DNA from: Rhizophagus irregularis
Taxonomy: Eukaryota > Glomeromycota > Glomeromycetes > Glomerales > Glomeraceae
Length of the DNA: 64,000 bases
Assembly: GCF_026210795.1 (NCBI RefSeq)
Contig: NC_089459.1
Coordinates: 1,612,001-1,676,000 of the forward strand
Reading direction: 5' to 3'
Both the position numbers and the translations under genes were made by a program. Under the pieces are notes generated by a model. That model searched no databases and was not told where the DNA came from. It saw only the letters and a list, made by a program, of their open reading frames with translations. Shown here piece by piece: positions 4,227-63,755 of the stretch. Each line of letters begins with the position of its first letter. The first letter of the stretch is position 1.

Positions 4227-5631
4227 CATCTAATAATCGTACAAAGATGTACCATAGCTTGTTAGAATCATCTCACTGAGACGAATCGAATGGTGGTAGT
4301 TTTATCCTTTTATGATCACTGGCTGATGAATTATTCGACAAAATGTTAAGCATTGGCATTATTATATTTCTTGATTTACGTTTACTGCGCCATTTAACAT
4401 TTTGCTGAATTTCTCGGTACCTAGTGATTATAAAAAGATGATTAATAGCTCGTTGGAATCCTCTCATCAAGACGAATCGAATGGTGGTAAGCTCATCTCT
4501 CTGTGATCAATATTGACGGAGTTACTACTTAAAAACCATTTAATATTTTTTAATTTCGGAAATTGATCTAGTGATTGGATTTCGATGTATTTTATACCAT
4601 TAGATTCGTCGCATCAAGACGAATCGAATGGTAGTAAGATCGTCTCTCTAGGATCAATATTGGCAGAGTTATTATACAAAAACCATTAATATTTTTTTAA
4701 CTTCGGAAATTAATCTAGTGATTGGATTTCGATGTATTTTATACCATTAGAATCGTCTCATCGAGACGAATCGAATGGCGGTAAGATCATCTCTCTACGA
4801 TTAATATTGGCTGAGTTACGATACAATAAAGTTTTAAGTATAATTTTGGCCAAAATTATGTTAATTTTTGGCCGGAATTATTATATACTAATATAAGAAA
4901 TTTTTTATATAGTCACATCTCTTTATAATCACCAAATATGGACTGTCCCAAATGTGTGACTATAAAGAGAGTTGACTGTATTACATAAATAAAACAAATA
5001 ATTAAATAACACTTATCAAATATAAACAATAATACAAAAAATCTACACATTTCCTCACTTTCAGAATTTTCTAAATGTTGTAGATATACAGTTTTTAATA
5101 GTGCTCCTACCGGGTCAGATTCGGTCAGGTTTGGAGAATATATCCGACTCGACCCGGCAAAAATAGAAATGATCCGATTTTAACCTGACCCGAGTATATT
5201 TAATTCGAATAACCCAGGTTAGACCCGAAATTTTCATTGAATAATATACTGTATGCTTAGTAATATATCAAAAATATCATATGGGCTGATCGTGCTCATC
5301 TCACTAAATAAGTTTATGTGATGTTGACGAGTTGTACCACCCAAGATCGTGAGTTGTACCACTGGTGTACCACCCAAAAATGTGTGATAAAAAAAACTCC
5401 CACCAAAAAAAGTCACTCAAAACGCATTTGAAAAAAAAAAAGAAATCCAATAACCGCACAGGACATAACCTTTTCGCTATTGAAATCGCAAGTTCAGATC
5501 AGTTTTAGATCAGTTTCATTTCGAAATTAACAAAATTAAGAAATATTATAAAAAGTAGTCTTATACGAACCTTTATAAATAGTTGCACTTAAAACGAAGT
5601 TTAGTCACATTTTATAAAAAGAATTGCACCA

Positions 5632-8264
5632 TGGTGAGTTAGCAATAATATAATTATTGTTAGATTTTTGCTAAATTTCTTATAATTTATATAGGTCGCC
5701 AGAGTTTTTTGTCATGATTATCCTAATAATCCTTACATGATGCCTTATACTCTATCGGAAACGCTTCATTCACAAGTATAAAGGTAATAGCAACTGATAC
5801 TATCCACAAAATATTAAATACACGCAAAAAAGTAGTAGGAGCATCGTTCAATATCAAATTCCAGATGGATACATCATAGAAACGGAAGCTGCAAACAAAG
5901 CAATACGTTGTGAAACGAAATACATCCCGGTAAATAAAGTGAGTGATGATCTTAAACTAATAAGCGTAATTTGTTATCTGTTATATAACAAAATCATTTA
6001 TTAATGTGAACAAGGTTTTATACACTATAATATGGAAAGAAGGACGGGCAGAATATTCAATATCTAGTGAACGATCAGCAAGTGGGGCAATAAATGCTTT
6101 TTTAAAGGTAAATTTTTAGAAATTAGAAATTATTTAATGTATTAATTATTATGTCTAACTATAATTTCTAAAAATATTAAAAATGTAACATCTATTTTTA
6201 TAGAGAATTAGCCGAGAAAATTCTAGACTTTCTGGGATACATGTTTTTGGATTAGATATTGAAATATTACATCAAGCACGAACTGAAGAATTAACTATAG
6301 CAAAAACTACTAATATTGACAAAAGAAAGCGGCCTTAGTGAAGTATCAGTATCACAACAAAATAAACGATATGCATCATTTGGGAGAGATGCTCACAAGA
6401 AAATCAAACAGCTTATTTTACAACATCGGATGGTTTTCGAGTCCGGGTAGCCAATTCACTTACGTAATATGGAATTGGAATATGAAGATCATATTATTAA
6501 TATAAAATACAATCTATTATTAGATCATATAAAATTAGATGCCTATGTGCGTGCCGTGATGAAGCTTTATTAGGACGTGATGGTTACCGAAGGCTTGCTG
6601 CTGTAGAAGCACGATTGACACGTGAATATCAAGTTGCACAAAGAAGAATAGAAATTACAAAATTAATCAATGAACAAATACCAATCGAACAATTAATCTT
6701 AATAAAGAGGTTAATCAACTTGATGATGATGATGAACATCAAAGCAATCCTGATGGAATCATGGTTGATGAACAAGAAATTGGTAATGGTGTTTATCGAT
6801 CTATTAGAAATCTTCTTCAAATATTTATTCCTATTTGGAATGAATCAAATCCTCCAATTCTTCAACCAGGGAGATACAATTAATTTGAAACTTGGTGGAG
6901 ACGGTAGAAATGTGGGCCGCAAACAGAATCATGTGATGTTAACTATTTGTTTATTAAATGAAAAAGATGAAGTATTAAAACCAGATCATCAGTATAGGTA
7001 GTATTAATTTTGTAATTTTTTAGAACATTTATTAAATAATGAGAAATTAGTATTTGCCTTTTTATAGGTAAAGAAAAATATGAAACATTAGCTAAAGTTG
7101 GAAATCTATTTAAGTATCAGCTCCAAGATCTTCAAGAAAATGGAATATCTGTTGATGGTGTGCATTGGCCAATTGAATTATATTTTTCTGGTGACTGGAA
7201 ATTTATGTATAATATAATGGGATTAAATGCACCAAATGCAAGATATTTTTGCCTATATTGTGATTGTGAAGCAAGTAATCGTTGGAATGTAGATTTATGT
7301 TGGCCAATTAATAAAAATACAAAGTGTAAGTGTAAACTTATTAAAATAATTTATGTTAAATTAATTATAAACATTATTTTAAATTAACAGGTCAAAAAAA
7401 ACCACCTTTATTTCCTGCTATTAAGCAAGAAAATTACATTCCAGACGAATTACATCTATTATTACGTATTTCAGATGTGTTAATGGAATGTTTTTTTAAT
7501 GATTTATTCAAAAAAAGGGAATTTGAACGAGAAATTAAAAATCAAATAGAACAAACCATGAAGTCAATTAAAGTTCATTTTGAATTTTTTAAATCAAGAT
7601 CAAATAAGGCAAGCCGACTTGACCTCATTAATTTGGGAATCCGACAAGAAAAAGGTTTTGCAACATTTCCCTATTGTTAATTTTATTTCAGGAAAACGTG
7701 GTGAAGAAATTCAAAAACTATGGCGTGATTTTTATGATTTATACTTAGTTTTGAGAAGTCCTAATCTAACATATTCAGAAATTGATAATTTCGAAAATAA
7801 AGCAAAGCAATGGATTAAATTGTTTTGTCGGCCAAGTCGAGGGCAAATGAACTCAGCATCACAAATACCGGGTTTATATAGAAAAGAGGATGTTACCCCT
7901 TATATGCATGTTTTTTCCCAGCACATTCCAGAATTTTTGCGAAATCTAAAGGAAAAAAATATGGGATTGCGGGTTTTTTCTACTTCAAGCATTGAAAAAA
8001 AAAACCATAATCAGGTATATCACTTTTATTTTTTTTTTAAATCATTTTGTTTGACTAATTACGTTATCTCTATTTTTATCTATAAATTTTAGGTTAGACT
8101 ATTTTTTTGTGGAACAACTATGGGTGGTGGAACCAGGAGGAAAACCTGTAGTATATGATATTATGGAGTTTGAAAATCGTCAGTTATATTATTTAATAAA
8201 TAATACGCCGCAAGAAATTCTGATGCGACATATTGATGCAGGGGACAAAGAAAACAAAGACTAA
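5632..8264 (+). pseudogene. Transposase of element D, decayed
   Basis: Plus-strand coding pieces with short introns begin near an ATG at 5632 followed at once by a GTGAGT donor. A region near 6030-6110 reads AEYSISSERSASGAINAF. The catalytic part carries LKLGGDGRNVGRKQNH (about 6890), then FSGDWKFMYNIMGL with CLYCDC (about 7190-7270), and a late SSIEKKNHNQ (about 7990). A GD...CxxC arrangement and a late acidic residue suggest a DDE/RNase-H transposase with a zinc-binding insertion. Stops and frameshifts near 5785, 6335, 6445, 6570 and 7610 disable it. It ends at a TAA at 8262-8264, nine bases from the end of the convergent accessory gene. Family name not assigned. Confidence 0.65.
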
Positions 8265-8273
8265 AAGTGGAAT

Positions 8274-9046
8274 TTACTTACTCTGATTCATATCTTGAAG
8301 TGGCCGAGGTAAAATGTAACGGAATTTCTTCTTAACAGGCTGTTTTAAATTGTTGGATAAAGATGATGTATCTTCTTGAAATATTGAAAATTGTGAATTT
8401 GGTGTAGGTGTTTGGTTTATGTTACTATAATAAAAAAATTATGAATAAATGTAAATTTTAAAAAAAAATAATAATAAACTCATTACTTTTCTTGAAATTC
8501 TCCAGAGTCTGTAATAAAATTACATGTCATTCTTCCTAATGTGAACTTTCTATTATTCTCTAATAATACCGTCTGGCTCCATATAAATTTAACTTGATAC
8601 ATATTTTCATAATCTTCAAGTAAGACATAACCTTTAGTATTAGTTAGAGGATTTTGTCGGAAACTCCACTGATCATAGTGAAGTATTTGCTTAAGTCTGT
8701 TTTCTCCTGTTAACCCCCAAAATAACATTGATATTTATGTTTAGCAGGACTGTATTTGAACTTTTCTTCATCTTTAAATAGATATACAAATATGTTTTCT
8801 GGAAATGTTTCGATTGAAAAGCATTTTTTCCCAATGGCATGTCGAGAAAAACCTAGTTTTTTTTTAATAAGAATTATAAAGGAGTTTATGTATTGAGACA
8901 TTTGTTCGAAGTAGGACGAGGAAGAGAATAAATGGGGTATTGTTTTTATTGTGCGAATGTTTATTTCTTTCATAAACGAATAATTTTTGATAAGTTGTAA
9001 AAGCTTTAAAACAAAGCTTACAGCAAATAGACAACGGGTTTTCCAT
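8274..9046 (-). pseudogene. Accessory zinc-finger protein of element D, decayed
   Basis: On the minus strand an ATG at 9046 opens a stretch with CKLCFKAFTTYQ and a following HSH, resembling a C2H2-type finger. After a frameshift near 8920 the reading continues with FPENIFVYLFKDEEKFKYSP, then HKYQCYFGGLTGENRL, GYVLLEDYEN, TCNFITDSGEFQ, and after an intron near 8425-8485 a tail ending in RYILPRPLQDMNQSK with stop at 8274-8276. A coherent C-terminus across an intron argues for a real second gene rather than chance ORFs. Function unknown; a DNA-binding helper is inference from the finger-like start. Confidence 0.5.
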
Positions 9047-12000
9047 CAGGACGTGAAAAACTACTGTACAACGATTACTGAATAAATATCGTATAGTACA
9101 TGCAATAATCACATTGTTGATCTGTGTGACAAAATTGAGGAGGAGTCAAATTGGCCCATATGTTTTTTCAAATATAATTTTTTCAATAACGCAAGGTAAT
9201 TGATCTACAAGATGATCATATAGGTCACACAACTTTTGTTATTAAAACTAAAGCTAAGCACGAATTTAAAGATATCTTCAATTTCCTGTTTATTTATTGC
9301 TTTATATTTGAACTATAAAATCGAAATTATATCACTTGCTTTAAAAGAAATTTGACTATACTTTATATCTGCCAGGACTTTAAACACATGCATGCTCTAA
9401 TTCTATCTGCTTTAAGACTACATCTTTTTGCAGCTATCAAATCGGTTCCACTGGAAACTATTGGAATGCTGGTTGCTTTATTAATCATCAAAATCAACTT
9501 ATTAGTTAATGTAATGTTAATAATTAAAATAATAATTCATACACATACCCAAAATTGCGAGGTGATCTCTAGCAATTTTCGCTAAGTGAGGATATACTAC
9601 CTCATTTATCTAACAAAATTATATAACATAATCAATATTAATGTGTAATCGATATGTGATCAGTGATTTTAATGATCATCCGGGTCTAATTCGGGTCAAA
9701 ACTCGAGTCAAGGAAATGAATGATCCGACCCGACGGGTTGGGTCATGCGGGTCACGGGTTATTAAAATTGTTAGTACCGACCCGATTTAAAATTTACTCA
9801 GATTGAATTATCCGGGTTAGACCCGAATTTTGCGGAGCACTAGTTTTTAAATTTGATGAGCAAAAAGCTCTATATGCGGCAGCATCATCCTGTCTATCAA
9901 GTTTAACAATATCTTGTTTATACATTACAGAATCTAAACGTTGAGAAATGAGTAGAAAATGATCAAAACGTGCAGTTGATCTTCCAAATGATAAAACTTG
10001 TGCTCCAGACATAATCACATTTTGGCAAGTTTTTTTGGCATGTTTTGAGTCTTGAACTCTTAAAACAGGGCCAACTGATGGTATAATCGGGCAGCTGAAT
10101 GTTATGTCAAATCTTGTATCAATCATTTGTAATCTCTCATCAATTGACATACTTTGAATTAATGTTTGAGTCTGAAATTCCACTAATGCACCATCAGAAC
10201 TAATACTTATTAGGATGTATAAGTTTAATTGAGATGCAATATTCATCAAAAGTTTTTGGTGAAGATCAACAATATCGGCTGTTTTATCTGAACCATTATT
10301 CAGAATTAATGCGATGACTACTGGTGGAAATTTAGAAAGTGGAACCTATTATATTTTCAATACATTGTATAATTAATCAATCAAATTTAATAATACTGTT
10401 AATTAAATAACAAATCTTACTTGCAGAATGTACACTTGAACACTACTTGCAAATGCTTTTTTACTTTTGATTTCATTAATTATTTGATTAATTTGATCGT
10501 AATCAGAAATTTTTGTTTCGTTATTATTGAATGTTGATTCAACAATACAGCCAAATTGTGGAGAATAACGAAGACCAATTTTTAATTTAGTGTTATCAGT
10601 CATAGCGACAATAGGACCTTTGTAATGCAAGGTATCTATTAATCATTTAAATCTTGCTACATTTTCATAGCAAAGATCTGGATCAGTAAGATAATCATTC
10701 TCATTTCTTTTAGTCGTCTTTATTAAAATTAATTTATAAAATAAAATATATCAGTATTAAATAAGTAATTATGTCAATACTGAAAGAAATTATAACGAAT
10801 TACCTAATACTTTGAATAATTCGTTCTTTCAATTTTGCCGAAAAAGATCTAAAGCCCGATTGCTAAAACTACCTAAAATTACAAGAAAGCTGGTAAACTC
10901 CTCTGAATATTTAAGATTTTGTCGACCTGAACTTTTCTCTTTTCGTAAATATGCTTGAATCATAACATGACATAATCCAGCAAATATAGGTTTATCGTTA
11001 AAAGCACCCTTCATTGCTTTGTTAGCCAAGGTAAGCGGTAAGCCACATATTTGGATTATTAGTTATGTCATCTCCTTTAATAATGTTCCAAATCTGAAGT
11101 AAATCAGCATTTTGCAAATACTTCTTCATTGGATCATTTTCAAACCAGAATGAAGGTATATGTTTTATGTTTTCAGGTTTCAGTGTTAGAATAAAAATCT
11201 GATTTTTCAATCAAACATCAAAACGTAATGCCAAACATGCAATGCAACAGATTTTGTTGCGACATGTTTTATCAACAAATCTGTTACACTCTTTCGCACA
11301 TACGGAATCACCTAAAATAAAATTAAATGTAAATAATTTTATTATGAAAAAATTCAATAGTATGAATAAAATAAACTAAAAAAAGGATAATCTTACTTTC
11401 ACGATCAATAAACCATGTACTTTCGGCATATATTTGTCGATTAAGAATCCTTTTTTCTTTAATGTTAATTCTTTTTCTAGAAAATCCTTTTTTAAATTTA
11501 TTTGGCCATATTTCTTTTGCAATTACTTCTATATGACAAGATCCACCAAACTTTGCAGGCGTTCGTTCTATATATTCTGAAATACTAGCTGAACAAAGAC
11601 CATTACAAGCTCTTCTTTTATTTGAAGTGAAATTAACATTTTCATTACCGGTGATATCGATAATAAAACTTATATTTTCTTTTCCTTCATATTCGTCTAC
11701 ACTAATAATATCATTATCATCCATTGCATCCTCAACTTCACTATTCCAATCTTCCCATTCTTCATCAGAATCATTAATTTCATGTTTCTTAGTATCAAAA
11801 AAATGATATATAGTTTTTTGACCTTCAACTCGTTTACACCCATTACTTCTGGCATGACGGTTAATATAATCCTCATCCCACTTTCTTGACAGTTTAATTA
11901 TTACACCACACACACAAATAACTTTTTTGCGCGTAAAACTTTAGCAACATATAGATGTTTCTTCAAACGTTCTTTTGAATACTTCCAACTTACTATAATT

Positions 12001-12544
12001 TGTAAAGTAAACTATTTAATATAATTTTAAAAAATAAGAACGCGTTTAGATATGAAAAAGTATACCAAATAGCAGACCGCGACGTGTAGGTAAGGAAAAA
12101 TAGAAGAAATGTAGCCATTATGTAATTGGTCATTACATAAAATAATAAATTCGGTTTTTTCTTTTAGAACATTATAATATAATCGGAAAAGGATTTTATA
12201 TATATTTATTTTGATTATCTTATTTGATTATCTTGACCAATATAAATTCTACGCATCTTCAAACCCTTAGTTTTAATTTAAGAGTAAAATACGCAAATAT
12301 AAATTATGAGTAGTACAAAATAAGTCCAGTACTACGCAAATCAATTTGTGAGTTTCAAAAAAATTTTCATATGATTGCTACGCAATCCTAAATGTAAGTT
12401 ATATCATAGATGTTCAGGGTCCTCTAATGCCGCCTTGTTGAGGTCTACTGATACAGTAACGATAGTGTATTTCTGTTGCGATTTAAATTTAATCGTGATA
12501 ACATGACCTCAGGCCTTTAAGTGATTAAGGACATTAAGTTGGGT

Positions 12545-13025
12545 CTATCGGGAGGGAATATCATATACTATAATTTCTCGAATATTCTCCTTAATTTCAG
12601 AATTATATCCAGTCATCACAGTGCTAATTGTTTTTGGCGCAAATGTAGCAGGTTGTTTCTTGGAAGCCTTATGGCTAGTACTAGATGTGCTAGTTTTTAA
12701 AACGGGCACAGTTTTTTGCTTCTTTTTATCCATATTAAGAGAAGGTGAACTCGGTCTGCTGGAGTCACTATTCGAGTCCTATTTAACTGCATCCACATAG
12801 AAAACTCGCTTTTTTCTTCCTTTTCCTTTGGGAGTAAAAGGTACGGCATCTGCTTTAAGAGTTTTGGGTGATACGGAAATAGAGGGCTCATCCTCTATCT
12901 GATCTACTTTTGACTCAATTTATGCTACAAGCTGCTGTAATTGTGATTGGGGTTTAGGGTATGCATAAATTTCCATTTCCATTAAGACATTTTCTGTAGA
13001 ACTGGACGTGTAATTGGTTTGTTGT
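12545..13025 (-). pseudogene. LINE ORF1-like (gag-like) fragment
   Basis: Minus-strand reading across two frames and several stops gives SVSPKTLKADAVPFTPKGK, then MDKKKQKTVPVLKTSTSS and IREIIVYDIP. These resemble the N-terminal part of an ORF1/gag-like protein of glomeromycotan non-LTR elements as I recall it. Stops occur near 12780 and 12925. No full domain remains. Confidence 0.45.
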
Positions 13026-13029
13026 GATG

Positions 13030-13400: not shown

Positions 13401-13429
13401 GCTAAAATTTTCTTGGGAAAAAATGGTCC

Positions 13430-14890: not shown

Positions 14891-14899
14891 TAATCATAA

Positions 14900-15900
14900 T
14901 CTTTTCAATTAATATTATAATTTCTGAATAATTTATATTAACTAGATGGTATATATTTAATAATTCATTCTTTTTTTTTTGATTTAATTTTCTGTTATTT
15001 CTTTAGTAAGTAAATTGATTTACCTTTATATTTAAAAATTCCTTTTTTTGTTTTGACAATTTTTAGTTAAAATTTGTAATTATAAATACTGATAGTAAAT
15101 CTGAAGAAATTAACCTTAATATTAAAAAAGCATCAATAATAAACCAATTATCATTTAAATAAATTTTCAATTTACTTTACAGTTCTTAAAAATATTTTTT
15201 AATTTTTTACTATAATATTTATAAATTGTTTTTTAATGATTTTTCCTTTATTTCATAATATGTATAAGTTCTTTTTTAAATAAATAAAATATCTATATAT
15301 GATCAAAATTGTTTTCCTTTTCTTTAATATATATTTTTATAATTTTATTATAAATCTTACCTATTTAATAGGAAAGTTTTTAATGACTTTTTTTAAAAAA
15401 ATCAAAATATAATTGTTTTTTAATAATTTGACTTCTGAAATAACCTTTTACTTTTATAATTATCAATCATCATTTTTGATTTATTGATAAATATTCATTA
15501 ATATTTAAAAAATCTTTATCATCTGATAAAAAAATACTTCTTTCCAATTTCTTTAATCAACTTGCTAAAAGTATTTGAACGGTATTTTTTCAAAAATGTT
15601 AAACCATATTTTCTTGCCATCTAGTATTGTAGTAAAAAGATGGTTAATTTTCATGGATTTGTTATAATGAGATATACTGGATGGTAATATTTTTGTAATT
15701 CTGTAATTGATAGATAATTGGTTATTATTACAAGTCTTTAAATTAAAAAATGCTAATAAATTTTCATCTATTGAAGCTAAAGATATGAAAATTTCACCAC
15801 TTAATTCATCATATTATGACATATCTAATGAGCTTCAGTTCGTTCTTTTATAATTAATAGATAATATAATATCTTGATAATTCTGTATCCAATTAGTAAA
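14900..15900. other. AT-rich region without recognised genes
   Basis: Low-complexity A/T-rich sequence with short poly-A and poly-T runs. It may contain further eroded LINE sequence upstream of the reverse-transcriptase fragment, but no reading is long enough to support that. Confidence 0.6.
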
Positions 15901-15903
15901 ATA

Positions 15904-16090
15904 CAGTCAAACCTTTATATAACGATATGTCGGGACATATATGAAATTTTTAGAAAATATCGTTATATCAAAGTTATACCGATATTTATATGTCCTCACA
16001 TATAGTGGGAAAATAATAAAATTTTATCGGTATAACAAGTTTTTAATAGTATATCGGTATATCGAATATCGGTATATCGAGGTTAGACTG
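15904..16090. mobile_element. pogo-like (Tc1/mariner) MITE
   Basis: The ends are CAGTCAAACCTTTATATAAC and GGTTAGACTG (complement CAGTCTAACC), with TA on both sides (15902-15903 and 16091-16092). The CAGTcaAACCTCTATATAACG-type end is characteristic of pogo/Fot elements. It is 187 bp, has subterminal TATCGGTATA repeats and no ORF, so it is non-autonomous. Confidence 0.85.
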
Positions 16091-16129
16091 TATTATTGAA
16101 ATGTATTGAATTTGAAAAAATTAATTATT

Positions 16130-16345
16130 AGCATGTCAAAATGTCAAGGCATTACGTTATTTGTGAACCAAGGCTCATTAAGTTTGTTGTAATGAGAAGC
16201 ATCAAATGGTGATGTTTTTATGTCTCTACCTTGTCTCCTATCAATCAAAGAAATACAAAAATAGCACCAATTGATGCATCTCATAATGAGCTTTTATAAT
16301 CATCTTTCTGCGATCACTGGATGGTGAGCAATAGCGATTTAATGT
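16130..16345. repeat. Decayed copy of the hairpin module family
   Basis: The blocks ATCAAATGGTGATG...ATGTCTCTA and CACCAATTGATGCATCTC followed by GATCACTGGATGGTGAGCAA align in order with the modules of the palindromic element at 62264-63470 (for example GACCACTGGATGGCGAATAA). The target hairpin arms have mutated. Confidence 0.5.
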
Positions 16346-16711
16346 TCTTGAAAAAAATACTGTCCAAATACTTTTGGCATGCTGGTATATACATGCAATA
16401 ATTTCATTATTATTGCCGCTTTTATAGTGTAAGAAGAGATATCACGACCCTACCAACAACCAATAATTATTTACGGCAATTTCTATAAAACATTTAAACA
16501 TTCGTTTATATTTATTTACTTAGAAATATTCAAATTAGGCTGTTCAGATAATTTTTGTGAAAAACGCAAATAATAGTATTACAGTATTACAGAAGGAAAT
16601 TTTTTAATTTAATTATGACAGCTAGCAAATACATAAAATGTTCTGGAATATATATTCTTTATAAAATAATACTTTTTTTTAATTGATAAAATATTCGACA
16701 GAATTTTTTCT

Positions 16712-18994
<2,283 letters not shown>

Positions 18995-28416: not shown

Positions 28417-28459
28417 ATTTTAGTTTTAGAACAAATAATATTTTCATAAATTTTCATAA

Positions 28460-34554: not shown

Positions 34555-37300
<2,746 letters not shown>

Positions 37301-51795: not shown

Positions 51796-51799
51796 TGTA

Positions 51800-52332
51800 C
51801 AGTCAACTCTCTTTATAGTCACACATTTGGGACAGTCCATATTTGGTGATTATGAAGAGATGTGACTATATAAAAAATTTCTTATATTTGTATATTATAA
51901 TTCCGGCCAAAAATTAACATAATTTTAGCCAGAATTATACTTAAAACTTTATTGTATCGTAACTTCGCCAATATTAATCGTAGAGAGATGATCTTACCGC
52001 CATTCGATTCGTCTTGATGAGACGGTTCTAATGGTATAAAATACGTCGAAATCCAATCACTAGATTAATTTCCAAAATTAAAAAAATATTAATGGTTTTT
52101 GTGTAATAACTCCGTCAATATTGATCACAGAGAGATGAGCTTACCACCATTCGATTCGTCTCGATGAGGCGATTCCAACGAGCTATAAATCGTCTTTTTA
52201 CAATCACTAGGTACCGAGAAATCTAGCAAAATGTTAAATGGCGCAGTAAACGTAAATCAAGAAATATTATAATGCCGATGTTTAACATTTTGTTGAATAA
52301 CTCGTCAGCCAGTGATCGGAAAAAAATAAAAC
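51800..52332. mobile_element. Truncated copy of Tc1/mariner-like element B
   Basis: Starts with TA then CAGTCAACTCTCTTTATAGT at 51798-51819 and follows the complement of 4978 down to about 4300, including the GGCCAAAAATTAAC block and two hairpin modules (near 52005 and 52160). It stops where LINE sequence begins near 52333, so one element is cut by, or fused to, the other. Confidence 0.8.
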
Positions 52333-52467
52333 AAAAACTAAAACTAACTCTCTCCCATTCTGCTCACTTGACAATATTTACGAAAAAATAAAAAATTTTT
52401 TCGGAGTTTTTTATTACTTTTTCTTTATAATTTCTTTATTTTAGATAACTACTACGACACTTTACAA

Positions 52468-54538
52468 ATGAATAAAGATAACAAAAAGAAAAATAACCAG
52501 TCTAACAAAGATACTACATCTAAACGTCCTGCCTCTAGCTCTCCAGCAGGCAACGTTTCTGGTCAAGGTTCCTCTATATCTGGCCCTTCGAACACTCCAC
52601 CTTCGACCACCTCTACTAATAAACGTACCAGAGTCAGTGCTGACGACTCTGTCACGTGATGTTCGATAAACCTCTCACGCTTCCTGGCCCTGTTGAGACA
52701 ACTTCCGCTGAGATACCTTCTCAACCCGATACCTCCTCTCTCGATGCTTCGCAACACGCCCCTACTAACAACAACGATAAAGGCAAAAGCCCTGAAATTA
52801 CTTCCCACAAGATGCCTAGCCCTGAACGTCGCATGCCTCTCCGGACGCGTCCCAAGCTGCAGTACAATCTCAACCTACACTTTTCTACGCCTCGGCCGCT
52901 CCTAATGACGTCGATGGCTTTTGGAATCACTTCGCTTCAAACCGCGACGCGTGCGACGCGGTTGATCGACAACTTTCCTTGTACTCCTCTTATGGTAGTC
53001 GTGCCACGTATAGTGGATCCAACGATTTGAAGAGGATCATCGTCCACTTCCGAAAAAAGGAAGATCTTGACAAAGCCACAGCCTCCCCTATGGATTCTTT
53101 GTTTGGCTTGCATTTCCATGCATATGACCCCCAGGCTATTAAGGCTGATGAACACGCGCGTACTGCATGGTTACCGATATCCCCCTTTTTCTAACTGACG
53201 CTCTTTTGCGTGGTACCTTTTCTCGTTACGGCAATATTACTCGTCGCCATACCCGTTTATCTAAACTTTATCGTACTGCATACATTACCTTTGAATCTAC
53301 TGGTGCTTACAGAACGCTAGGCTCTCTGGGCGTCCAGCTGGATGAGACATTGTTTGCGTATTTGCCCCGCTACTTTACCGCTTTGAACAACGCGCTGAAA
53401 GACGTGCTTATGTTGCTTTACTTGCCGGTCTCCCACGTGGCACTATAGCGGTCGATCTTGCTGAAATTGCCGATGAAATTTCTGCTAAATCTATCGATGT
53501 TCATACCCATGAATTCTTACGATCCCCACCCAAGCGCTACGCCTATTGCCATTTTGCTCTGAAACGCTATGGAAAATGCTAAATCTATTTCATGTTCTTC
53601 AAGAATTTACAACCCGCCTTACCAATTGCATTTTGCCTCCGGAAACCTCATTTTGTATCTTTCTCGGAAATTGGCCACCTGGCAGCCTCGTCATCGTACG
53701 AGGGTACGCCCTAACTTGTAACCCCGATCGATGCGGTTCTTCATCTAGACCTAATCGCCCTTCTCGCCCTTGGCAATCTAATGATAAATTACGTGCTTTA
53801 TATAACAAGCATCTACCTCCTTCTCATCCTGCTAAACGACATAACCGTTTTGCCCGCCCTGATAACAATAATGATGGACAAAGCCGTACCAATGCTTCTC
53901 GCCATCGTTCTAAATCCAGACCTAGTAATCGACAACAATCTCGTTCTCGTTCTCAACATCAACCATGGAATCGCGACAATCTTAATAACAATAATAATAA
54001 TCTACGTCGTCGTATTCCTGATGCAAATGAACTTGATTACTATATTGATGGCATGGATGTTACATACCCTGCTCCTCCTACTGTGCTTACTGATTGGAAA
54101 TCTATTGGTGCTGCTCTTGAAAAAGTAGTTGAAGAATTAGCCCTTCTTACCACACAATTTGCTACCATGAACAGCCGCATCACTAATTTGGAATCTGCTA
54201 TGGCTGCTCGTGCTCCTATTCCTGGCCCTTTTGTCACTAAACCTCCTTCCTACATCCCTTCCTCTATGCAAGGATGGGATGATACAGTGAATCGAAATGA
54301 CAATAATATTCTCGTTGATGTTACTTCTCCTCCTTTGCAATCAACAAGTGGTTTTTCCCCGATTCTTCATTTTGCTCCCATTCCACCTTCCAACGTCGCT
54401 CCTTCCTCCCCTATTGATATGGAACAGCGTCTCTCCTCTCTTTCCGATACTGTTGCCTCCTTGGCTGGCTCGATTAAAGAAGGAATCCAACAAAACAACC
54501 TCATCTTAGCTCAGCAACAAGGCCAAGCTAATCAATAA
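52468..54538 (+). pseudogene. LINE ORF1 (RNA-binding, gag-like), frameshifted
   Basis: Starts at ATG 52468 with a Ser/Thr/Pro/Lys-rich leader, changes frame near 52655, 52870, 53165 and 53400-53580, and ends in an intact 3' part to a TAA at 54536-54538. The middle resembles an RRM (LIVHFRKKEDL-type and LYRTAYITFES stretches, the latter near 53270). The C-terminal part is Arg/Ser/Gln-rich (RHRSKSRPSNRQQSRSRSQ) followed by Asn runs and a helical segment (LEKVVEELALLTTQFATMNS), a plausible coiled coil. This is the usual ORF1 layout; binding to LINE RNA is inferred from it. Confidence 0.75.
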
Positions 54539-54591
54539 TTGTTCTTTTTTTCTCTTCCCCTTCTTTATTACCGATTTATCAGTGTGTAATA

Positions 54592-57500
54592 ATGATGGAC
54601 AACAAAAAACATAATTTTTCCCCTCACCCCTCTCCCCTTATCAAATTTGGTCAATTAAATGTTAATGGTTTATGTTCCCCAGTTCGACAACAACATTTGC
54701 TTAATTTTTTTCTTCACTCCTCCTTTGGTGCTTTATCTATTAATGATACGCGTCTTTCCCCTTCAAATGCTAAATTTATTTTTAAAAATGAACACTTCCA
54801 ACATCACTTCAAGTCCTATTGGGCTTGTTCATCTTCTTCTTCTCGCCCTCATGATGGTGTTGGTATTTTGTTACGTAATCCCCTTCATAAACATGTTCAA
54901 ACAATTGATCCTTGGAATGGTCGACTTCTTAAATTAGATTTGTTTTTTCATCAAACAAAAATTTCTATTATTTCCATATATTATCCCCCTTCTGGTTCTG
55001 TTCATCAATCTATTTGCAATGATCTTATTGCCAAACTTCTTTCTTGGCTCGATTTTGCCCGAGCTAATAATTATTTTGTAGTTATTCTTGGCGACTTCAA
55101 TGCTGATGTAATCGCTCATTCTAATTATTCACCTAATCATTTTAAGCTTCTTCGCTCGCTTTCTTCTCGGTTTTTTACTGATCATCAAGCTCACTCCTCT
55201 ACAAATGGTCCTGATCCCACTTTCTTTCATGATAATGGATCTTCTCGACTGGATTATATTTGGTCTTCACCTGGTTTTCCTGCCCCTGGTCTCTTTTCGC
55301 AAGTGGTTTCTTGCCCGGATCTCCTTGATCGTCCTTTTACCGATCACAAAGTTCTTTCAACTGTTTTTGACTTCAGTTCTTGCCTGGCTATTTTGGCTAA
55401 ATCTCGTCTTAAACAAAAACTAGAATTGCGTACTATTTTCTCTTACGCTTCCACTTCAGTTGAACAATGGAATAATTTTACCACTGAAGTAGATGATTCT
55501 CTTGGAGTTTATTTAGATAGACAATATCGCCCTAATTTTGATTTCTCCTCTCTTTCTCTTGATCGTATGTGGCATGCATTGAAAGCTGCCATAATTAGTG
55601 CTGCTATTGAAACTTTACCTTTTCAAAAAGTCTCCAACACACACCGACATTCGTACTCTCCTGAATTAACTAAACTTATTGCTATTAACAAGTTTTTAGA
55701 TCGATTTTTATATCGCCTTACTACTCGTCGTTCTAATCGGCCTTCTCAGATTGCGCAAATGACTGCCGCTTTGCCCTCCCATCTTGAGAATCTTACATCC
55801 TGCCTCCCCGATTACTCAGTTCCTACCTATTCTACAACCCCGCATCTGTATTTAAATCGTTTTTACGATCACAGAAGAATTTAGTTTCTGCCTTTTTATC
55901 TACTAAATTCGCCCAACACCTTACGGACTCAGTGGAATATTATACTGCACTACGTGACGAACACTTTTCGACCTCGCTTGGCACCTTTATAGATTCTGCC
56001 CTATCAGTAGAAAAACGCTCGATTGTTCTTGACCGTGTTTTGGTCATTTTGGACTCTACTCCTACCTTTTTAACGGATCCTTCGGATATTAAACAAGCTG
56101 CTATTTCTCATTTTCAATCAATTGTTTCTCCCCCGTTAACCCGTTACTCTTCCATCATTTCATTTCCTGCCCGATGGCAACAAGCTTACACTCCTCTTGC
56201 TAATGCGTCTGCTTTACTATACGATCCCTGTTTTCGCTCTATTTCGCTACAAGAATGGTCTACTGTGATTTCCTCCATGCCAAATAACAAAACTTCTGGC
56301 CCTTCAAAAATTTCTTATGAGATGATTAAACATCTGTCCGGTGAAGCCTTGGATTTCTCTCTTTTATTGGCCAATACCTGCCTTTCTCGCGGTGATATTC
56401 CTGCTGATTGGCGTGAAGCTGTGGTTTATCCTATTCCTAAACCTCACGACTTTGATGCTCAACTTAAGAACACTCGACCTATTACTCTTCTGGAAACAGT
56501 TCGAAAATGTGTAGTTAAGGTCGTCACGAATCGTCTCTCCAACATTCTTGCTGATAATAAAGTTCTCCAAGGTGGAAATTTTGCTGGCTTACCTGGTGGT
56601 TCTACTGATGTCCCTATCAAAATGCTTGATGCGATTATCCATCAACATAAACACGACTCTACTGATGATCAGGAACTATGGATCGTTTCTCGAAGATATC
56701 TCTAAAGCTTTTGATTCTATGGATTTAAATATGCTTAAATTAGCTTTAGATAGGTTACATATCCCTGCACTTTTAGTGCGATTTATTTTAAATCTTTTTA
56801 CACGACGAAATAATAAGATAATTACCTGTCATGGCGATACAGCTGCTTATAGAGTACGTGTTGGTATCGATCGAAGGAGAAATCATTTCCCCTCTTCTTT
56901 GGGTTATTTATTTGGATCCTTTACTCACTGTTTTGAATCAAGAAGCACGAGATCCTTTTATTTTAAAATCTTCAGCTCTTTTAAATTATTCTCCACTTGA
57001 ATTTGAACAACATTCTTTACCAATTTCACATTTAACGTTTATGGATGATTCTACACTTATTGCTTCTTCAAAATCTGGAATAGAAGACCATCTTTCTATT
57101 ACTGCTGAATTTTATACTTTAAATAATGTTCAAGCTAATTCAGCTAAATATGTTCTTCTTTCATCTTCTTCACATTCTTCAAAGATTATTTTTGATCTTA
57201 CACCTTCTTTTTTAGTTTCTGATTTGTCTCTTTCCCTTTCCTCTTTATCTTTGTATGCTTCCTTTCGCTTTTTAGGCGTTTGGTTTTCCTTATCTGCCTC
57301 TCCTAATTTTGTTCTCAAACAAGCGCGCTCCATGGTTAAAGATATGGCAGCTCTCCTGGGACCGAAGAAATTATTAGCACAACATGTGGCTTATCTCTAC
57401 AATGCTGTCCTTCTTCCGCGATTGGAATTTCGTCTTCAAACTACCCTTTTCTCTGAAAGTACTATTCAATCAATAGTTAAACCTATGTTTTCAGTACTTC

Positions 57501-59985
57501 GAAGAAAAGCTGGTCTTGCTACGACTACTCCGTCGCCCCCTGTTATTTCTCAAACTTCCCTTTTCGATTCAAAATGCTTTCTATCGCTTTCTTTCTTCCC
57601 ATATTGCATCTTGGCAAAAAATTTTCACTCATCCCTGATTTCAAAGATTTTGCCCTTTATGCTATCTCCTATCTTCAAGGATATCTGGGTGCTGAAAGTT
57701 GCCCGACTACTATTAACTTAGAACCATGGTCACAGATCGTTTCTTTGCGAACGCATACTTTGTTTAATTCGTTATTGTTTTCTTCGCGTTTGAACATCAC
57801 GTGGTCTCTTACCTTCCGGCCTTTGAGGCATGATCTACAACCTGCTCTGCCACTCTGATCTATTCTTCCTCATTCCATTTTTCAATTGAGTTGGAAACTT
57901 TGGAAAAACTTGAATATATTTGTGCTTGCTCAGTTGGTTTCTCCTTGTGGACGTTATCTTATGAATTGGCCTGACCTTCGTTATCTTGGCATCGTTGGTC
58001 GTAAAGGACGGATCCCTAATTGGTTTACTTTTATTAATAATAATTTTCTCTCTTCTTCTTCTTCTACTTTACTTTTATCTTCATATTTTATTAATTCTTC
58101 TTTTACTTTAGCTTCTCCTTGTTTATTAGATCATACTGTTAAAGATTATTTTTTTTATCCTCAATGGGCTATTACTCTCGACTCGCTACTCAAACTTTAT
58201 CTGTTGGTCGTGTGTGTATCACTTATAAGAAACAAAACTCGGCTATTATGTCTCATTGGCTTCCTATATCTACCTCGGCTGATGAACGATCCTATGACCC
58301 TTGTCCCGGTTGTGCTCTTAACATTCCCGCCTTATCCATGAAATCTGCCATTCGACAACGCTGTAATAGCGAGAAATGCTTTTTTAATGTAACCCTATCA
58401 GATACTGTGGGCTATCCTACCAGAAATGCCAAAGTCTTTGCGGCTTATCTTCCCATTACTCTATCTACTTCATGGAGTTATGCAACCTCCTTGGCTCTTG
58501 TTCATTTTTCGAACGCGTCTCCCGCTCTTTCTCCTCTCTTTAAGGATAGTATCGATAGAATTGAAGACACTATTTTACCACTTTCGGTGCAATCTTTGTA
58601 CACAGATGGTTCGTTCCATCCTGCCAATGATTCTTCGCCTTCTTCCATGACCTCTGCTTGGATCGCTCTTGATGATGTTGGACTTGTTCTGGAATCTTCT
58701 TCCATGCATCTCCCTTCTTACTTTCCTTCCGCTTTGCGTTCTGAAATTTCTGCTGTTCTGTTAGGATTGAATGCCCTTTTCTGTGATTCGTCAATCTCTA
58801 TTCATACTGATTGTAGTCAGTTAATTTCACTATGGACACGGTTTGTTGATGCTCCTTTCTCACCGAAGTTGCTCCGAGAACCTAATCATCTTCTTTGGCT
58901 TTCTATTCGACAACTCATCATGGATCGTAATTTTAATGTCGAATTGATTAAAGTCCCTGCTCATGGCGATGATATCTACAATATACAAGCGGATTATTTG
59001 GCAAAAGATGCTCATTCGTCTTCACAACCCACTACCCTACTTTCAACATTTTGTTATGCTCCATGCTTGTTGACCTTTAACTCCTTGCCTATTGACGTGA
59101 ATATTCGACATTTTCTCCGCTTTATTGCAGATGCTCGTGCTCTTTTATCTTTCTGTTCACTAGCGCGTTTTACTGCTCTTGGTTCTCCTTCACTTTTTGA
59201 TTGGGCTGGTATATATTTTTGCCTTTCACAAATTAAAGGTTTTGCTTCACATAGGAATGGTCGTCCTGAATTTTGGATCTTCTGCATTAAACTTCTTTTG
59301 GATATGTTGCCTACCTTAACTACTCTTCAACAACGTAAACCTTACTTATATTCTCCTGACTGGCTCTGTCCGCAGTGTAACTCTGCTCCTGAAGATTTGA
59401 ATCATCTTTGGACTTGTCCTTATATTTTACTGGATTTAAATCCCTGTTTAACACACCGGTCTGAAGTCATTAAATTTAGAGATTCTTGTTTATCTTCTTT
59501 CTTATCCTTGAAATCTTTGGATAATTCCTTTCATACTGAGTTCTTTGCTTTGGATTGCTGGAACTATGAAGCTCCTTCTTCATCCTGTCTTTGGCTTACT
59601 CGAGGATTGTTGCCTGCGCATTTAACGGCATTTTTGAATCAATACTTTCCTCTCTCTCGTTATATACAAGATTATTTCTCCCCTTCTTAATGACTTCCAA
59701 GTCGAATTATATGGTGAAATTTGGCTGTGTCGGAATGTTCTTTTTCATGCTTGGGAGGAGTCGCAGGGTATCTCGGCTGCTTCCAAATTACGTGGCCCAT
59801 CTACAAATTCTTTCCCTAATACTACTCCTCCACAACAACACAACTCTTCTTTGGCGTCAGTTTCTCAGGATTCCTGGATTTCTTGGATATCCTCTTCTAT
59901 AATTCGGGGTGGATCTTGGATCTCGCACTTGGATTTTCTGCGCCGCTTAACAGTTCAACCTCTTAGGATCTCTTTCTGGTAACGG
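54592..59985 (+). pseudogene. LINE ORF2 polyprotein: endonuclease, RT, RNase H, zinc knuckle
   Basis: ATG at 54592. The endonuclease is intact in the first frame to 55884: FGQLNVNGL, VVILGDFNADV, SRLDYIWSS and FTDHKVLST mark the AP-endonuclease motifs. After a frameshift near 55840 the RT fingers follow (SGPSKISYEMIKHL, DWREAVVYPIPKP, RPITLLETVRKCV), then more shifts near 56680 and 56870. The catalytic box is FMDD at 57038-57049. Breaks at about 57600, 57857 and 58165 lead to RNase H (YTDGSF, SEISAVLLGLNAL, IHTDCSQL, ADYLAKDAH). A knuckle CPQC...H...C lies at 59367-59417. A last shift near 59670 leads to GEIWLCRNVLFHAW, ending around 59985. Not functional as it stands. Confidence 0.85.
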
Positions 59986-60216
59986 ACTGGATTTTTGGAT
60001 GTTGGATAGTTGACTCACACTGGCCTTCGCGTAAAGTTGGGGTATGCGATTCTGTAATAGTTCAGTTTTTCTTTGCTTTAATTTTATTTTAGTTTAGATT
60101 TCTTTACTTATATGAGTCGTGAAGCTACTCTTTTTATTTTTTATTAGTTTATTTTCTTATTTTTGTAATATTGTTCGATTATTTTTCGAAATCCAAAATA
60201 TAAATAAAAGATAAAG

Positions 60217-60799
60217 TCATAAGACTGTTTGCACAGGAAAAAAATAAAACTGTTCATGCACAGAACAGGTAGCATGGCTATATGGGTTCAATTCCCTACC
60301 CTCTCCCGGTCCTAGGCGTGATCCCTGGTGGCCTTGATACCCACCGTAAGCGGGGTGATCCTGGATAGATGCTGCTACTTCCTGTCGAGTGGTCACACAA
60401 AGTATACCACTTGGGAGTAAACAACTGTACTATCGGTGCTTGGTAATCGCGGGCTGTAGTGGCTTTGAGTGAGCTTAGTACCTAACGTGGTGGTATGAAA
60501 GGGTACTTAGATGGTTGATGTTACCTGTCGAAAGTCCTCAATGAGAAAGTAGATGCTCTCTAAAGGTCGTTAAATAAATTGAGTATCAGTATCATGCAAT
60601 GGGTATAGGATGAGTAGGCGGCGTGTCTAGCTTCAGATCAGCCTAAAATGGCCCGATGGGAGATGTCTTTTATAGTGGTGCTGTTACCTGAGGAATTAAG
60701 TCTCGGTATAATGGTTGCCCAGTGAAGATGATAGGACACAGACCCGAGATTAGTCTCATAAGAGGCAATGGGTGGTCTGGCCGTAAACACTAGCAAAGG
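60217..60799 (+). repeat. Tandem repeat unit A (partial)
   Basis: Begins right after the LINE. It shares order and sequence with unit B: GGTGATCCTGGA..., ACTTCCTGTCGAGTGGTCAC, GTACTATCGGTGCTTGGTAA, AATTGAGTATCAGTATCATG, GATAGGACACAGACCCGAGA and the tail GGAAAAAAATAAAAC at about 60798-60812. Its head holds GGGTTCAATTCCC, similar to a polymerase III B box. No protein is encoded. Confidence 0.8.
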
Positions 60800-60812
60800 A
60801 AAAAAATAAAAC

Positions 60813-61533
60813 GGGACTTCCTGTCCGGGTGGTCACTCTACGATACCGCTTGGGGTCAGTAATGGCTAGATGGTCGTCCTAGATGGTAAAGCTGAGGGTG
60901 CAATGTCTTAGTGGTAGTTAGACCTTCTGTTATTAGGTGCCCTTAGACCAACCGGAATGTTCGTTGCGCGGAACAGGTAAGCAGGGTAGCAGGTTGGCCA
61001 ATTCCTACTTCGGCACCCCTACCTCCCAGGCCCCATTTGGCGATCCCCTGGTGGTTTGATACCCACCATAAAGGGGTGATCCTGGACAGATGCCTGCTAC
61101 TTCCTGTCCGAGTGGTCACTAAAAAGTATACCACTTGGGGTAAACAACTGTACTATCGGTGCTAAGTAATCGCGGGCTGTAGTGGCCTTTGAGTGAGACT
61201 TAGTACCTAAAATGGTGGTATGGAAGGGTCTAGATGGTTGATGTTACCTGTCGAAAGTCCTCCATGAAAGTAGATGCTTTCTCAAAGGTCGTTAAATAAA
61301 TTGAGTATCAGTATCATGCAATGGGTATAGGATGAGTAGGCGGCGTGTACGTAGCTCAGATCAGCTAAATGGCCCGATGGGGGATGTATAGTGGTGCTGT
61401 TACGCCGAGGAATTAAGTGTTTTCGGTTTAATGGTTGAGCCCATTGAAGATGATAGGACACAGACCCGAGATTAGTCACATAAGAGGCAATGGGTGGTCT
61501 GGCCGTAAACACTTGCAAAGGAAAAAAATAAAA
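60813..61533 (+). repeat. Tandem repeat unit B (complete)
   Basis: A unit of about 720 bp from GGGACTTCCTGTCCGGGTGG to the tail GGAAAAAAATAAAAC (ending 61534). It contains an internal duplication: a 40-bp block starting ACTTCCTGTCCG and ending CACTTGGGGT or CGCTTGGGGT occurs at about 60816 and again at about 61098. Short reading frames here are not conserved between units, so it is non-coding. Confidence 0.8.
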
Positions 61534-61558
61534 CCCTAGGGTTGGTCACCCTATCTCG

Positions 61559-61627
61559 GTGGTTAGTCACTGAGACCCTCATTAAGCCTGAGTATGGTGA
61601 GGTCGCAGGTTCGATTCCCATGACCAC
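61559..61627 (+). ncRNA. tRNA-like sequence, probable tRNA-derived SINE head
   Basis: A 69-nt stretch whose ends pair like an acceptor stem (GTGGTTA with TGACCAC, one G-U). It has an anticodon-like arm CTCA-TTAAGCC-TGAG and a perfect B-box match GGTTCGATTCC. The D arm is degenerate and the T stem pairs poorly, so it is unlikely to be a working tRNA. It is followed by GGAAATAAAAA, a SINE-like tail. Confidence 0.45.
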
Positions 61628-61634
61628 GGAAATA

Positions 61635-61830
61635 AAAAGAATTTTACTGCGGACGCTACAACCAATAGCGTGAAGGTACAGGGATTAGTGTAGTTGGACT
61701 GCATCATGGTGAATTAGTGTGTACGGTTAGGCCGCACATTTCACTAAGGGTCAGAAGGTGTCCTAACGTTCTATGAGCCGATAGTATGTGCGCGATCCCC
61801 CCGTATCATGTCATACTATACCCGCCTTGA
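61635..61830. repeat. Spacer between repeat units
   Basis: The part from about 61750 (GGTGTCCTAACGTTCTATGA) recurs in altered form at 63765-63845 (GGTGTCCTTAGCATTTTCTA), so it belongs to the repeat unit in longer copies. The first 115 bp are not matched elsewhere in the window. Confidence 0.5.
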
Positions 61831-63755
61831 GGGGGACTTCCTGTTCAGGGTGGTCAGCTCCACGATACCACTTGGGGTCAGTAATGGCTAGATGGTTGTC
61901 CTAGATGGTAAAGCTGAGGGTGCAATGTCTTAGTGGTAGTTTGACCTTCGATGTGCTAGGCCGAACCAAGGTGTTCGTGCGCGGAACGAGGTAGCGTAGT
62001 TATGGGGTTCGGTACGTGCAGGGTCCTGGTTGGTGGATGCACAGGTGGTTGATACACGCCAAGGGTGATCCTGGACAGAAGCCTGCTACTTCCTGTCCGA
62101 GTGGTCACTACAAAGTATACCTTGGGACTTGGGGTAAAACGAACTGTACTTATCAGTCTTGGAAGTAATCGCGGGGCTGTAATTGAACTTGTAAGTGACG
62201 GCTTAGTACACCTAAAATGGTGGTATGGAAGGGTACTAGATGGTTGATGTTACCTGTCGAAAGTAAAGCTCCGAACGGGTCGGTTTGGTCCGGATTATAG
62301 ACGGTTCAGATTAGAGCCGAAATCCGTAAGAACCGAACCGAAAAACCGGCGGTTCGGTTCGGTTTAATCCGATTTCTATAAAAATGCGAAAAATCGAATA
62401 GCCGGCCATCTAGTGGTCATATAAAGTCGAGCCATATATCATTGGATTCGTCTCGATGAGACGCGTCGAATGGTAGTAAGATCATGTCTCTAGCATCGAT
62501 AGATCACACGTCAACCCACGCTAAATGATTTATAAATAATTGGAATTAGCAAGCTATCTATCGGTGCTAGAGATATGATCTTAGCACCATTCGACGCGTC
62601 TCAGTGAGACGAATCCAATGAATATAAATTCGTTCATGTACGACCACTGGATGGCGAATAATATCAAGTTTCGCATTTTTTTAAAATTTTTGAGCGTTAA
62701 AAATTAAAAATTAAAAATTCCGATACATGAATTTATTCGTCGTCCAATGGTCGTACAAATATGTATTAGGACTCATTGGATTCGTCTCGATAGCAGGTCG
62801 AAGAATGGTGGTGAGATCATGTCTCTAGCATTAATAGATCGTAAGTTAATTCACGCTAAATAATTTATAAAAAATTGGCATTAGCATGCTATCTATCGAT
62901 GCTAGAGACGTGATCTTACCACCATTCGACTCGTCTCATCGAGACGAATCCAATGAGTCGTAATACATATTTGTACGACCATTGGACGACGAATAAATTC
63001 ATGTATCGGAATTTTTAATTTTTAACGCTCGAAAATTTTAAAAAAATGCGAAACTTGATATTATTCGCCATCCAGTGGTCGTACACGAACGAATTTATAT
63101 TCATTGGATTCGTCTCACTGAGACGCGTCGAATGGTGCTAAGATCATGTCTCTAGCACCGATAGATATCTTGCTAATTCAAATTATTTATAAATCATTTA
63201 GCGTGGGTTGACGTGTGATCTATCGATGCTAGAGACATGATCTTACCACCATTCGACGCGTCTCGTCGAGAGGAATCCAATGATATATGGCTCGACTTTG
63301 TACGATCACTAGACGGCCAGCTATTCGATTTTTTGCATTTTTATAAAAAATCGGATTAAACTGAACTGAACCGCCAGTTTTTCGGTTCTAATACCCGAAC
63401 CGAACCGAACCGAATTTTGAGCCGGTTTCGGATCGGTTCCCCGGTTTAGCCCGAACCGTTCGGAGCTTTAGTCGAAAGTCCTCCATGAAAGTAGATGCTC
63501 TCTAAAGGTCATTAAATAAATTGAGTATCAGTATCATGCAATGGGTATAGGATGAGTAGGCGGCGTGTCGCAGCACGAATCAGCCTATAATGGCCCGATG
63601 GGGGATGTCTTCTATAGTGGTGCTGTTACCTGAGGAATTAAGTACTCGGTATAATAATTGCCCATTGAAGATGATAGGACACAGACCCGAGATTAGTCTT
63701 ATAAGAGGCAATGGGTGGTCTGGCCGTAAACGATTAGAAAGGAAAAAATAAAACC
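61830..63755 (+). repeat. Tandem repeat unit C, split by a palindromic element
   Basis: Unit sequence runs 61830-62263 and resumes at 63471-63755 after the inserted element, keeping the order GTTACCTGTCGAAAG | TCCTCCATGAAAGTAGATGC. It carries many small insertions compared with unit B and ends with a six-A version of the tail (GGAAAAAATAAAAC). Confidence 0.8.
62264..63470. mobile_element. Giant palindromic hAT-like element G
   Basis: 1207 bp with perfect 15-bp ends TAAAGCTCCGAACGG and complement, and an exact 8-bp duplication GTCGAAAG at 62256-62263 and 63471-63478. The left half (to about 62867) is the reverse complement of the right half over its full length with scattered mismatches. The ends fit YARNG and carry CCGAACCG/CGGTTCGG subterminal repeats, as in many hAT elements and similar in style to element D. 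Inside are six hairpin modules alternating in orientation (near 62450, 62600, 62785, 62935, 63115 and 63265). No ORF. Confidence 0.92.

Follow-up and report, generated by a model that had tools for sequence, protein, structure and literature searches.

Transposons of at least three kinds in the genome of the arbuscular mycorrhizal (AM) fungus Rhizophagus irregularis are filled with the same quasi-palindromic module of about 140 nucleotides (nt). In one of these carriers, element B, a long interspersed nuclear element (LINE) and a shorter partner insert at fixed points, among them a module arm. We analyzed a stretch of 64,000 nucleotides (NC_089459.1, positions 1,612,001 to 1,676,000, or G000:C31:1612001-1676000; hereafter the window), which is AT-rich and repeat-dense, and searched the 146.7-Mb assembly of 32 contigs to which it belongs. 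The presence of the module in Tc1/mariner-, hAT- and CACTA-like non-autonomous carriers is supported by the termini and target-site duplications (TSDs) described below. The module is probably, if by no means certainly, a rarely exchanged cargo of several transposon kinds, and in B it also gives the LINE a place to land.

A palindromic module recurs in the window

An earlier note on this DNA had reported a 23-nt hairpin followed by a tail, recurring in element B, in a second B copy and in element G. We found this recurrence to be far above chance: GATTCGTCTC has 20 window matches at up to one mismatch (1.8 expected), while AATGGTGGTAAGATCATCTC and the entire hairpin each have 11 matches at up to three mismatches (0.00 expected in both cases). 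Whole hairpins lie at 4265, 4456, 4603 and 4750 in B and at 52006 and 52153 in its second copy, in line with the four and two counted before. In G there are five (62445, 62593, 62928, 63107 and 63255) and not six, as the sixth (62779) has kept the 5' half of its stem and lost the 3' half; a profile built from hairpin copies still scores a module there. The same profile indicates that the true repeat unit is the ~140-nt quasi-palindromic module, of which the hairpin is only the apex. The palindromy spans the full module, since most copies are matched on both strands, and the smaller unit described earlier has to be replaced accordingly. A mutated copy previously placed at 16.2 kb is present as a weak match, to which we add a second weak one nearby. 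The modules in the window are (coordinates, strand, profile score):

4221-4346, plus, B module 1, 92 bits; 5' arm broken by element F, 3' arm is the LINE target, empty here (4311)
4398-4539, plus, module of B module 4 type, 106 bits; 5' arm equivalent to the second target and undisrupted in this copy
4548-4686, plus, B module 2, 112 bits
4692-4831, plus, B module 3, 114 bits
15752-15864, minus, decayed module in element J, 28 bits (weak)
16226-16340, minus, decayed module in element J, 33 bits (weak)
51947-52087, minus, module in second B copy, 109 bits
52092-52234, minus, module in second B copy, 119 bits
62385-62525, plus, G module 1, 111 bits
62533-62676, minus, G module 2, 113 bits
62720-62861, plus, G module 3 with damaged apex, 82 bits
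62869-63009, minus, G module 4, 115 bits
63046-63189, plus, G module 5, 112 bits
63197-63336, minus, G module 6, 110 bits

The carriers differ in termini and target duplications

The DNA transposons of the window that concern us here, several of them miniature inverted-repeat transposable elements (MITEs), are:

1254-1551, no strand assigned, second copy of element F, 8-bp TSD CTTTATAC
3528-4980, plus, element B, Tc1/mariner-like MITE with both termini and TA on each side, split by element F
3930-4226, no strand assigned, element F, hAT-like, AGGACCCCGGATATCT termini and 8-bp TSD CATCTAAT, interrupting B module 1
about 15550-16390, element J, Tc1-like termini seen by eye only, holding two decayed modules
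51800-52334, minus, second B copy, right half only, interrupted by the LINE
62264-63470, no strand assigned, element G, hAT-like MITE, TAAAGCTCCGAACGG termini and 8-bp TSD GTCGAAAG, nested in retro units

We compared the ends of these elements and of two further carriers, C and D, which are additions to the families named before. TA lies beside the right terminus of B in 29 of 29 cases, and the printed left-end rows likewise follow TA. Among 24 pairs of G termini, 22 are flanked by an 8-bp duplication with no more than one mismatch; the other two belong to L041 and to L047, a module-free copy of 135 bp. The termini of C are TATAGTTGTTTCCGAAATT and AATTTCGGACACAAGTATA, with an 8-bp duplication in 22 of the 23 copies that have both ends (28 loci scanned; exception L081), and both window copies of F carry one of the same length. 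The D termini (CACAGGTCGAAAAGTG) are flanked by a 3-bp duplication in all 13 copies with both ends, as read by eye. CACTA/CMC termini begin CACT(A/G), whereas those of D start with CACAGG, and we thus call D CACTA-like and not a member. Judged by termini and target duplications, B would be Tc1/mariner-like and G, C and F hAT-like. The TA duplication of B and the 8-bp one of G had been proposed earlier, together with the idea that unlike transposons are filled with the same sequence. Both proposals hold, with different termini and duplications of 2, 3 and 8 bp; the spread over two families reported then has turned out to be far wider.

Genome-wide, the hairpin pattern occurs at 1,943 places at up to two mismatches (backwards-read control, 0), and searches of viral contigs and prokaryote genome contigs with exact core patterns found 0 stretches. 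Of the places counted by a pattern search, about the first 100 are listed with their sequence, and breakdowns given below for listed matches hold for these. Forty-four loci (L001-L044) were picked by the hairpin at up to one mismatch, a choice biased towards intact cores, and L045-L091 by G, C or B termini. By our own assignment from the selected hairpin, the 44 comprise 18 B, 9 G, 14 C and 1 D carriers and two with unresolved termini (L006, L042). Two of 15 B-terminus loci are devoid of a module (L067 and L074, with L073 left out of the count). The interior of those G, C and D copies that we saw consists mainly of modules. Thirty representative modules from various carriers gave an alignment of 147 columns in which 27 rows are gap-free, and 11 of 162 full-length modules in terminus-selected carriers (L049-L091) show a net change in length.

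A trace of the module is also found in F, the arms of which are similar to the outer module arm and match the C module arms over 38 columns with a score of 46 (best of 300 shuffles, 24). They do not match the D module, and the apex of F differs from the module apex.

For autonomous relatives of the hAT-like carriers, 150 hAT dimerisation domains were scored out of 836 candidates. Locus L092 was rejected as an autonomous hAT carrier, since its G is an ordinary copy and the hAT gene next to it is unrelated. In L093 (G000:C22), positions 119-734 are a C copy, 96% identical to that in L012 and broken exactly at the outer end of its module (734); hAT transposase frames start at 2992, 2.3 kb past the break. 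No second terminus of this copy was found within 8.4 kb (L093, L145), save for weak matches inside the hAT gene.

Two side observations concern neighboring structures. A 10-kb stretch between inverted G-like termini (L045/L046, G000:C4:4641600-4652010) is free of modules and has a single frame that reaches 120 amino acids, and its inverted repeat extends outside the termini, as seen by eye. Between the two decayed modules of J, a short element with inverted ends ACAGTCAAACC.. and ..GGTTAGACTGT occupies window positions 15904-16096.

Modules mostly cluster by carrier and multiply inside it

We calculated a tree of 29 modules, for which three of the 30 aligned rows (J1, J2 and a collapsed G) were dropped and two modules from L048 were added. 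The carrier label needs 8 changes on this tree, the minimum possible being 7, and a single clade of C modules is not rejected (p-AU from the approximately unbiased test, 0.54). Modules thus appear to cluster mostly by carrier family, which points to rare exchange between carriers. Local repetition alters how many modules a carrier has: some G copies hold 4, others 6 or 8, and one B copy (L036) has four consecutive units identical over 143 letters. Reduction is seen as well. In L014 (808-1203), a G of 396 bp with an 8-bp duplication is built around one near-perfect palindromic module. A 398-bp relative of G (L048), the duplication of which has one mismatch, holds two inverted and clearly different modules.

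A LINE and a shorter partner insert at fixed points in element B

In seven of the 44 loci (L019, L022, L027, L029, L030, L031 and L039), B module 1 breaks at one and the same point into a GC-rich repeat. Read in the sense of the insert, the target is ..CAGTGATCGG AAAAGGATAAAACTA CCACCATTCG... The second B copy of the window is interrupted in this way by the following features:

52335-60237, plus, LINE in B module 1, a decayed copy with broken frames, GGAAAAAAATAAAAC on both flanks
54532-55884, plus, LINE endonuclease frame (Exo_endo_phos, PF03372, 6.7e-11)
56822-57721, plus, LINE reverse transcriptase piece (RVT_1, PF00078, 1.2e-6; its 28.8 bits lie just under the curated cut-off of 29.6)
58143-59690, plus, LINE RNase H frame (PF00075, 8.3e-8)
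60253-64000, plus, a stack of further retro units on the 3' side of the LINE (repeat families D4, D7, D8 and D20)

The stacked units meet B at a 3' junction 0.9 kb outside the window (L107:902). The LINE has an endonuclease of the APE type, with PF03372 and PF14529 both over cut-off, as is PF00075 for its RNase H. In the one copy with both ends, the target duplication GGAAAAAAATAAAAC is a variant of the usual target AAAAGGATAAAAC. The 5' end of the LINE adjoins the target in L063, L065 and L066 as well, and its 3' end reads ..GTCATAAGACTGTTTGCACAGG. A 21-nt remnant of this 3' end at the target (L127) is the sole 5'-truncated LINE copy that we read.

The partner is about 1 kb long and ends in ..GTCTGGCCGTAAACACTTGCAAAGG. 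Its two junctions were found together in six loci, where they enclose 135, 140, 163, 307, 335 and 993 nt, lengths that include both insert and duplication. All six inserts have the same 3' end but differ at the 5' end, and five of them are truncated; the 993-nt insert, the GGGTTGGTCACCC head of which recurs elsewhere, may be complete. At five of these inserts the first target copy agrees over 14 letters, and in L019 over 18. Two further letters (GG) before the target copy are ambiguous because the partner insert also ends in GG. The target duplication for LINE and partner inserts is thus about 14 nt. A fixed 3' end, a varying 5' end and a target duplication are together the marks of target-primed reverse transcription. 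The regenerated target is used again in head-to-tail stacks (L121-L124, L126, L131, L135 and L142-L144), in which the GGGTTGGTCACCC-headed unit of about 1 kb (L126, L131, L135 and L142-L144) is often spaced at 990-1006 nt. By eye, the 3' ends of LINE and partner are alike over a few letters, TTGCA(A/C)AGG.

We next give the counts for target choice. LINE 3' ends occur at 326 genome places (reversed control 2, one per strand), and 97 of the 100 listed adjoin B: 53 lie at the module-1 target, 43 at a fixed point in the B right terminus and one at the corresponding arm of module 4. The other three include one terminus-like flank, and one of these three flank strings carries an extra letter through a copying error. 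At the right terminus, the same or a sister LINE stands before ..ATAATCACCAAATATG (L006 and L067 in addition to the listed ends). Partner 3' ends occur at 239 places; among the 100 listed, 47 pair with listed module-1 target junctions. From the other 53 we read 21, finding the module-1 target with small changes in ten (including L022), the module-4 arm in five (L139 with other sequence after the target) and another retro copy in six, and the remaining 32 stand outside these counts. At up to three mismatches, junctions of the partner number 124 with module 1 and 10 with module 4 across the genome, beside 236 empty module-1 sites. B copies with an empty site include L018, L020, L021, L025, L026, L036, L038, L060-L062, L064, L068, L069, L071, L075 and the window copy at 4311. 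LINE and partner hence recognize B, by a pair of matching module arms and a single terminus, and not every module.

Discussion

Our favored reading is that the module is a cargo. It would be a non-coding block of about 140 nt, held between the termini of non-autonomous DNA transposons and copied passively whenever its carrier is moved by the carrier's own transposase. Crossing between carriers would have been rare, about once per family with perhaps a second event for B, and would have come about through recombination or nested insertion; multiplication inside each carrier may have followed. In B, the APE-endonuclease LINE and its ~1-kb partner insert at the fixed point in the module-1 arm and much less often at the matching module-4 arm, with the point in the right terminus seen for the LINE. 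The likely route is target-primed reverse transcription in which a sequence-selective LINE endonuclease chooses the site, and the LINE machinery may also serve the partner. With its hundreds of copies, B could represent a safe haven for the LINE.

Several observations weigh against this account. The test comes close to rejecting a single clade of B modules (p-AU 0.076), as two of them group with C modules (support 98/91), and exchange between families may thus be commoner than we propose; at the same time, no module crossing between carriers was seen in the loci studied. No autonomous carrier that bears modules could be shown, L092 and L093 being the nearest candidates to the G and C ends. The partner looks like a SINE (short interspersed nuclear element), but a tRNA-like head is unconfirmed: A- and B-box-like letters are visible by eye only, and neither ARAGORN (6 loci) nor Rfam (5 loci) found a tRNA. 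Junctions of the partner with the D-module arm number 0 genome-wide at up to three mismatches, and the D arm is also absent from the 100 listed LINE flanks. It follows that the retroelements read B and not the module as such. The earlier suggestion that the module is a site that attracts insertion is thus borne out for fixed points in B and fails for the module in general. Finally, a core of 35 columns differs by 0.20 between group consensuses and the arms by 0.43, a contrast which pure passenger DNA would not predict. The core is slower within groups too (0.026, compared with 0.043 for the arms), where the largest set mixes two B modules, which inflates both values. The contrast between and within groups is not significant (P = 0.12), and purifying selection on the core is at most suggested by these comparisons.

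A rival reading takes the module for a functional cis-site, bound for example by a dimeric host protein, that aids amplification of the carrier and has therefore been acquired or kept by several superfamilies. We regard this as a minor possibility. The conservation of the core between families, the gap-free alignment of diverse copies and the large share of the carrier interior taken up by modules all agree with it. However, the core is the slower part within groups as well, the contrast with the differences between families is not significant, and G copies exist with 4, 6 or 8 modules and, in L047, with none. With a similarly low probability, the module may be a selfish cassette that changes vehicles, moving without a transposase of its own across at least three superfamilies, with an arm motif (AGTGATYG, then an A-rich run) as the recognition site through which LINE and partner use the carriers as a safe haven.

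Less probable still is an old miniature mobile element, a palindromic MITE that jumped into different transposons. The module is palindromic and of fitting size, its outer arms pair over a dozen letters in some copies (L048, by eye), carriers of at least three kinds hold it, and its arms are recognizable in F. Such an independently mobile hairpin element had been put forward before, yet B, G or C carriers, intact or broken, account for 41 of the 44 loci sampled and the modules mostly cluster by carrier family, which speaks against it. No TSD at a module edge was noticed in the 44 loci, in which no systematic scan for such TSDs was made.

It is very improbable that the module is a structured RNA, be it a small-RNA precursor or a functional hairpin RNA, as had also been considered. 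Long hairpins are indeed present on both strands, and the matches that G gives at lax Rfam thresholds, all of them under gathering scores, fall mostly on microRNA precursors; such matches may arise from any long hairpin. The palindrome itself is real, since 65.1% of cells at 55 symmetric pairs of the 30-row alignment are standard pairs, compared with 35-44% for slid partners. Compensatory stem changes, the absence of which the earlier note had named as a point against its proposal, are indeed absent from this alignment: when the 3' letters are permuted among the sequences, the paired share is 67.0%, and the observed covariation score of 0.137 is below that of the shuffles (0.157; 500 of 500 at least as high). 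RNAalifold predicts 11 pairs with a covariation term of -0.18, and Rfam gives no gathering-level match anywhere in the window. We therefore reject a structured RNA. Two simpler candidates were likewise rejected. A coding sequence is interrupted by stops in all six frames, two frames being depleted of them (38 and 43, with 74.2 and 62.5 expected). A nucleosome-sized unit would agree with the 147-nt spacing in B and C, a spacing which is absent in D, in E and between G pairs.

A single module-bearing ancestor, from which B and G arose by deletion or rearrangement, deserves almost no credence: the modules are homologous, and elements do recombine and collapse (L014, L047), but four carrier families with different termini and TSDs of 2, 3 and 8 bp make a single ancestral element, the other point that the earlier note had named against itself, very unlikely.

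We compared this system with known ones. Tetris in Drosophila virilis is described as a foldback transposon with internal tandem repeats of about 220 bp (PMC4079207). Tetris and DAIBAM resemble our module carriers as non-autonomous DNA transposons with internal repeats. Their repeats also occur outside as longer arrays, and the two elements share ends and probably one autonomous partner, whereas here the internal repeat is common and the ends and TSDs differ (PMC4079207).

Among LINEs, Tx1L inserts into Tx1D, and Tx1 LINEs are not known to have an RNase H domain. The window LINE has one, and we liken it to the Tx1 group by site choice and not by clade. Its own targets are an arm of a MITE-internal module and a MITE terminus. 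Two accounts describe the Tx1 group as target-specific non-long-terminal-repeat (non-LTR) retrotransposons with transposons named among their targets, and fixed insertion sites in repetitive DNA are thus common to both (PMC3747384, PMC5035012). LINEs paired with SINEs offer a second parallel: the shorter non-autonomous element has a partly similar 3' end and the same target sites, as it has here (PMC3747384). Unlike in such pairs, our partner is about 1 kb long, its tRNA-like head is unconfirmed and few 3' letters are common. FoTeRs, telomere-associated non-LTR retrotransposons of Fusarium, are also fungal LINEs tied to one kind of genomic place, in their case telomeres and in ours a MITE (PMC12857005).

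For R. irregularis, many repeats are reported as unclassified, next to MITE and LINE classes, and the portions seen of these accounts mention neither a common module nor insertion-site specificity of LINEs (PMC11075540, PMC8647823). Five strings of the module core, and a sixth that is arm-like and known from repeats in other organisms, gave no match in the open-licence papers searched, and nothing on target-specific LINEs or SINEs in AM fungi was found in the open-licence literature. As far as our searches show, the B-specific LINE and its partner would form an undescribed target-specific retrotransposon system in an AM-fungus genome.

The internal filler of MITEs is usually thought to be private to a family. 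A block common to Tc1-, hAT- and CACTA-like carriers implies that non-coding cargo can pass from one kind of transposon to another, and the shared module could explain part of the unclassified repeat fraction in annotations of AM fungi. Should the module be a selfish, vehicle-changing cassette after all, three levels of mobile DNA would depend on one palindrome. The hundreds of filled and empty sites in B make the target rules of the LINE directly measurable.

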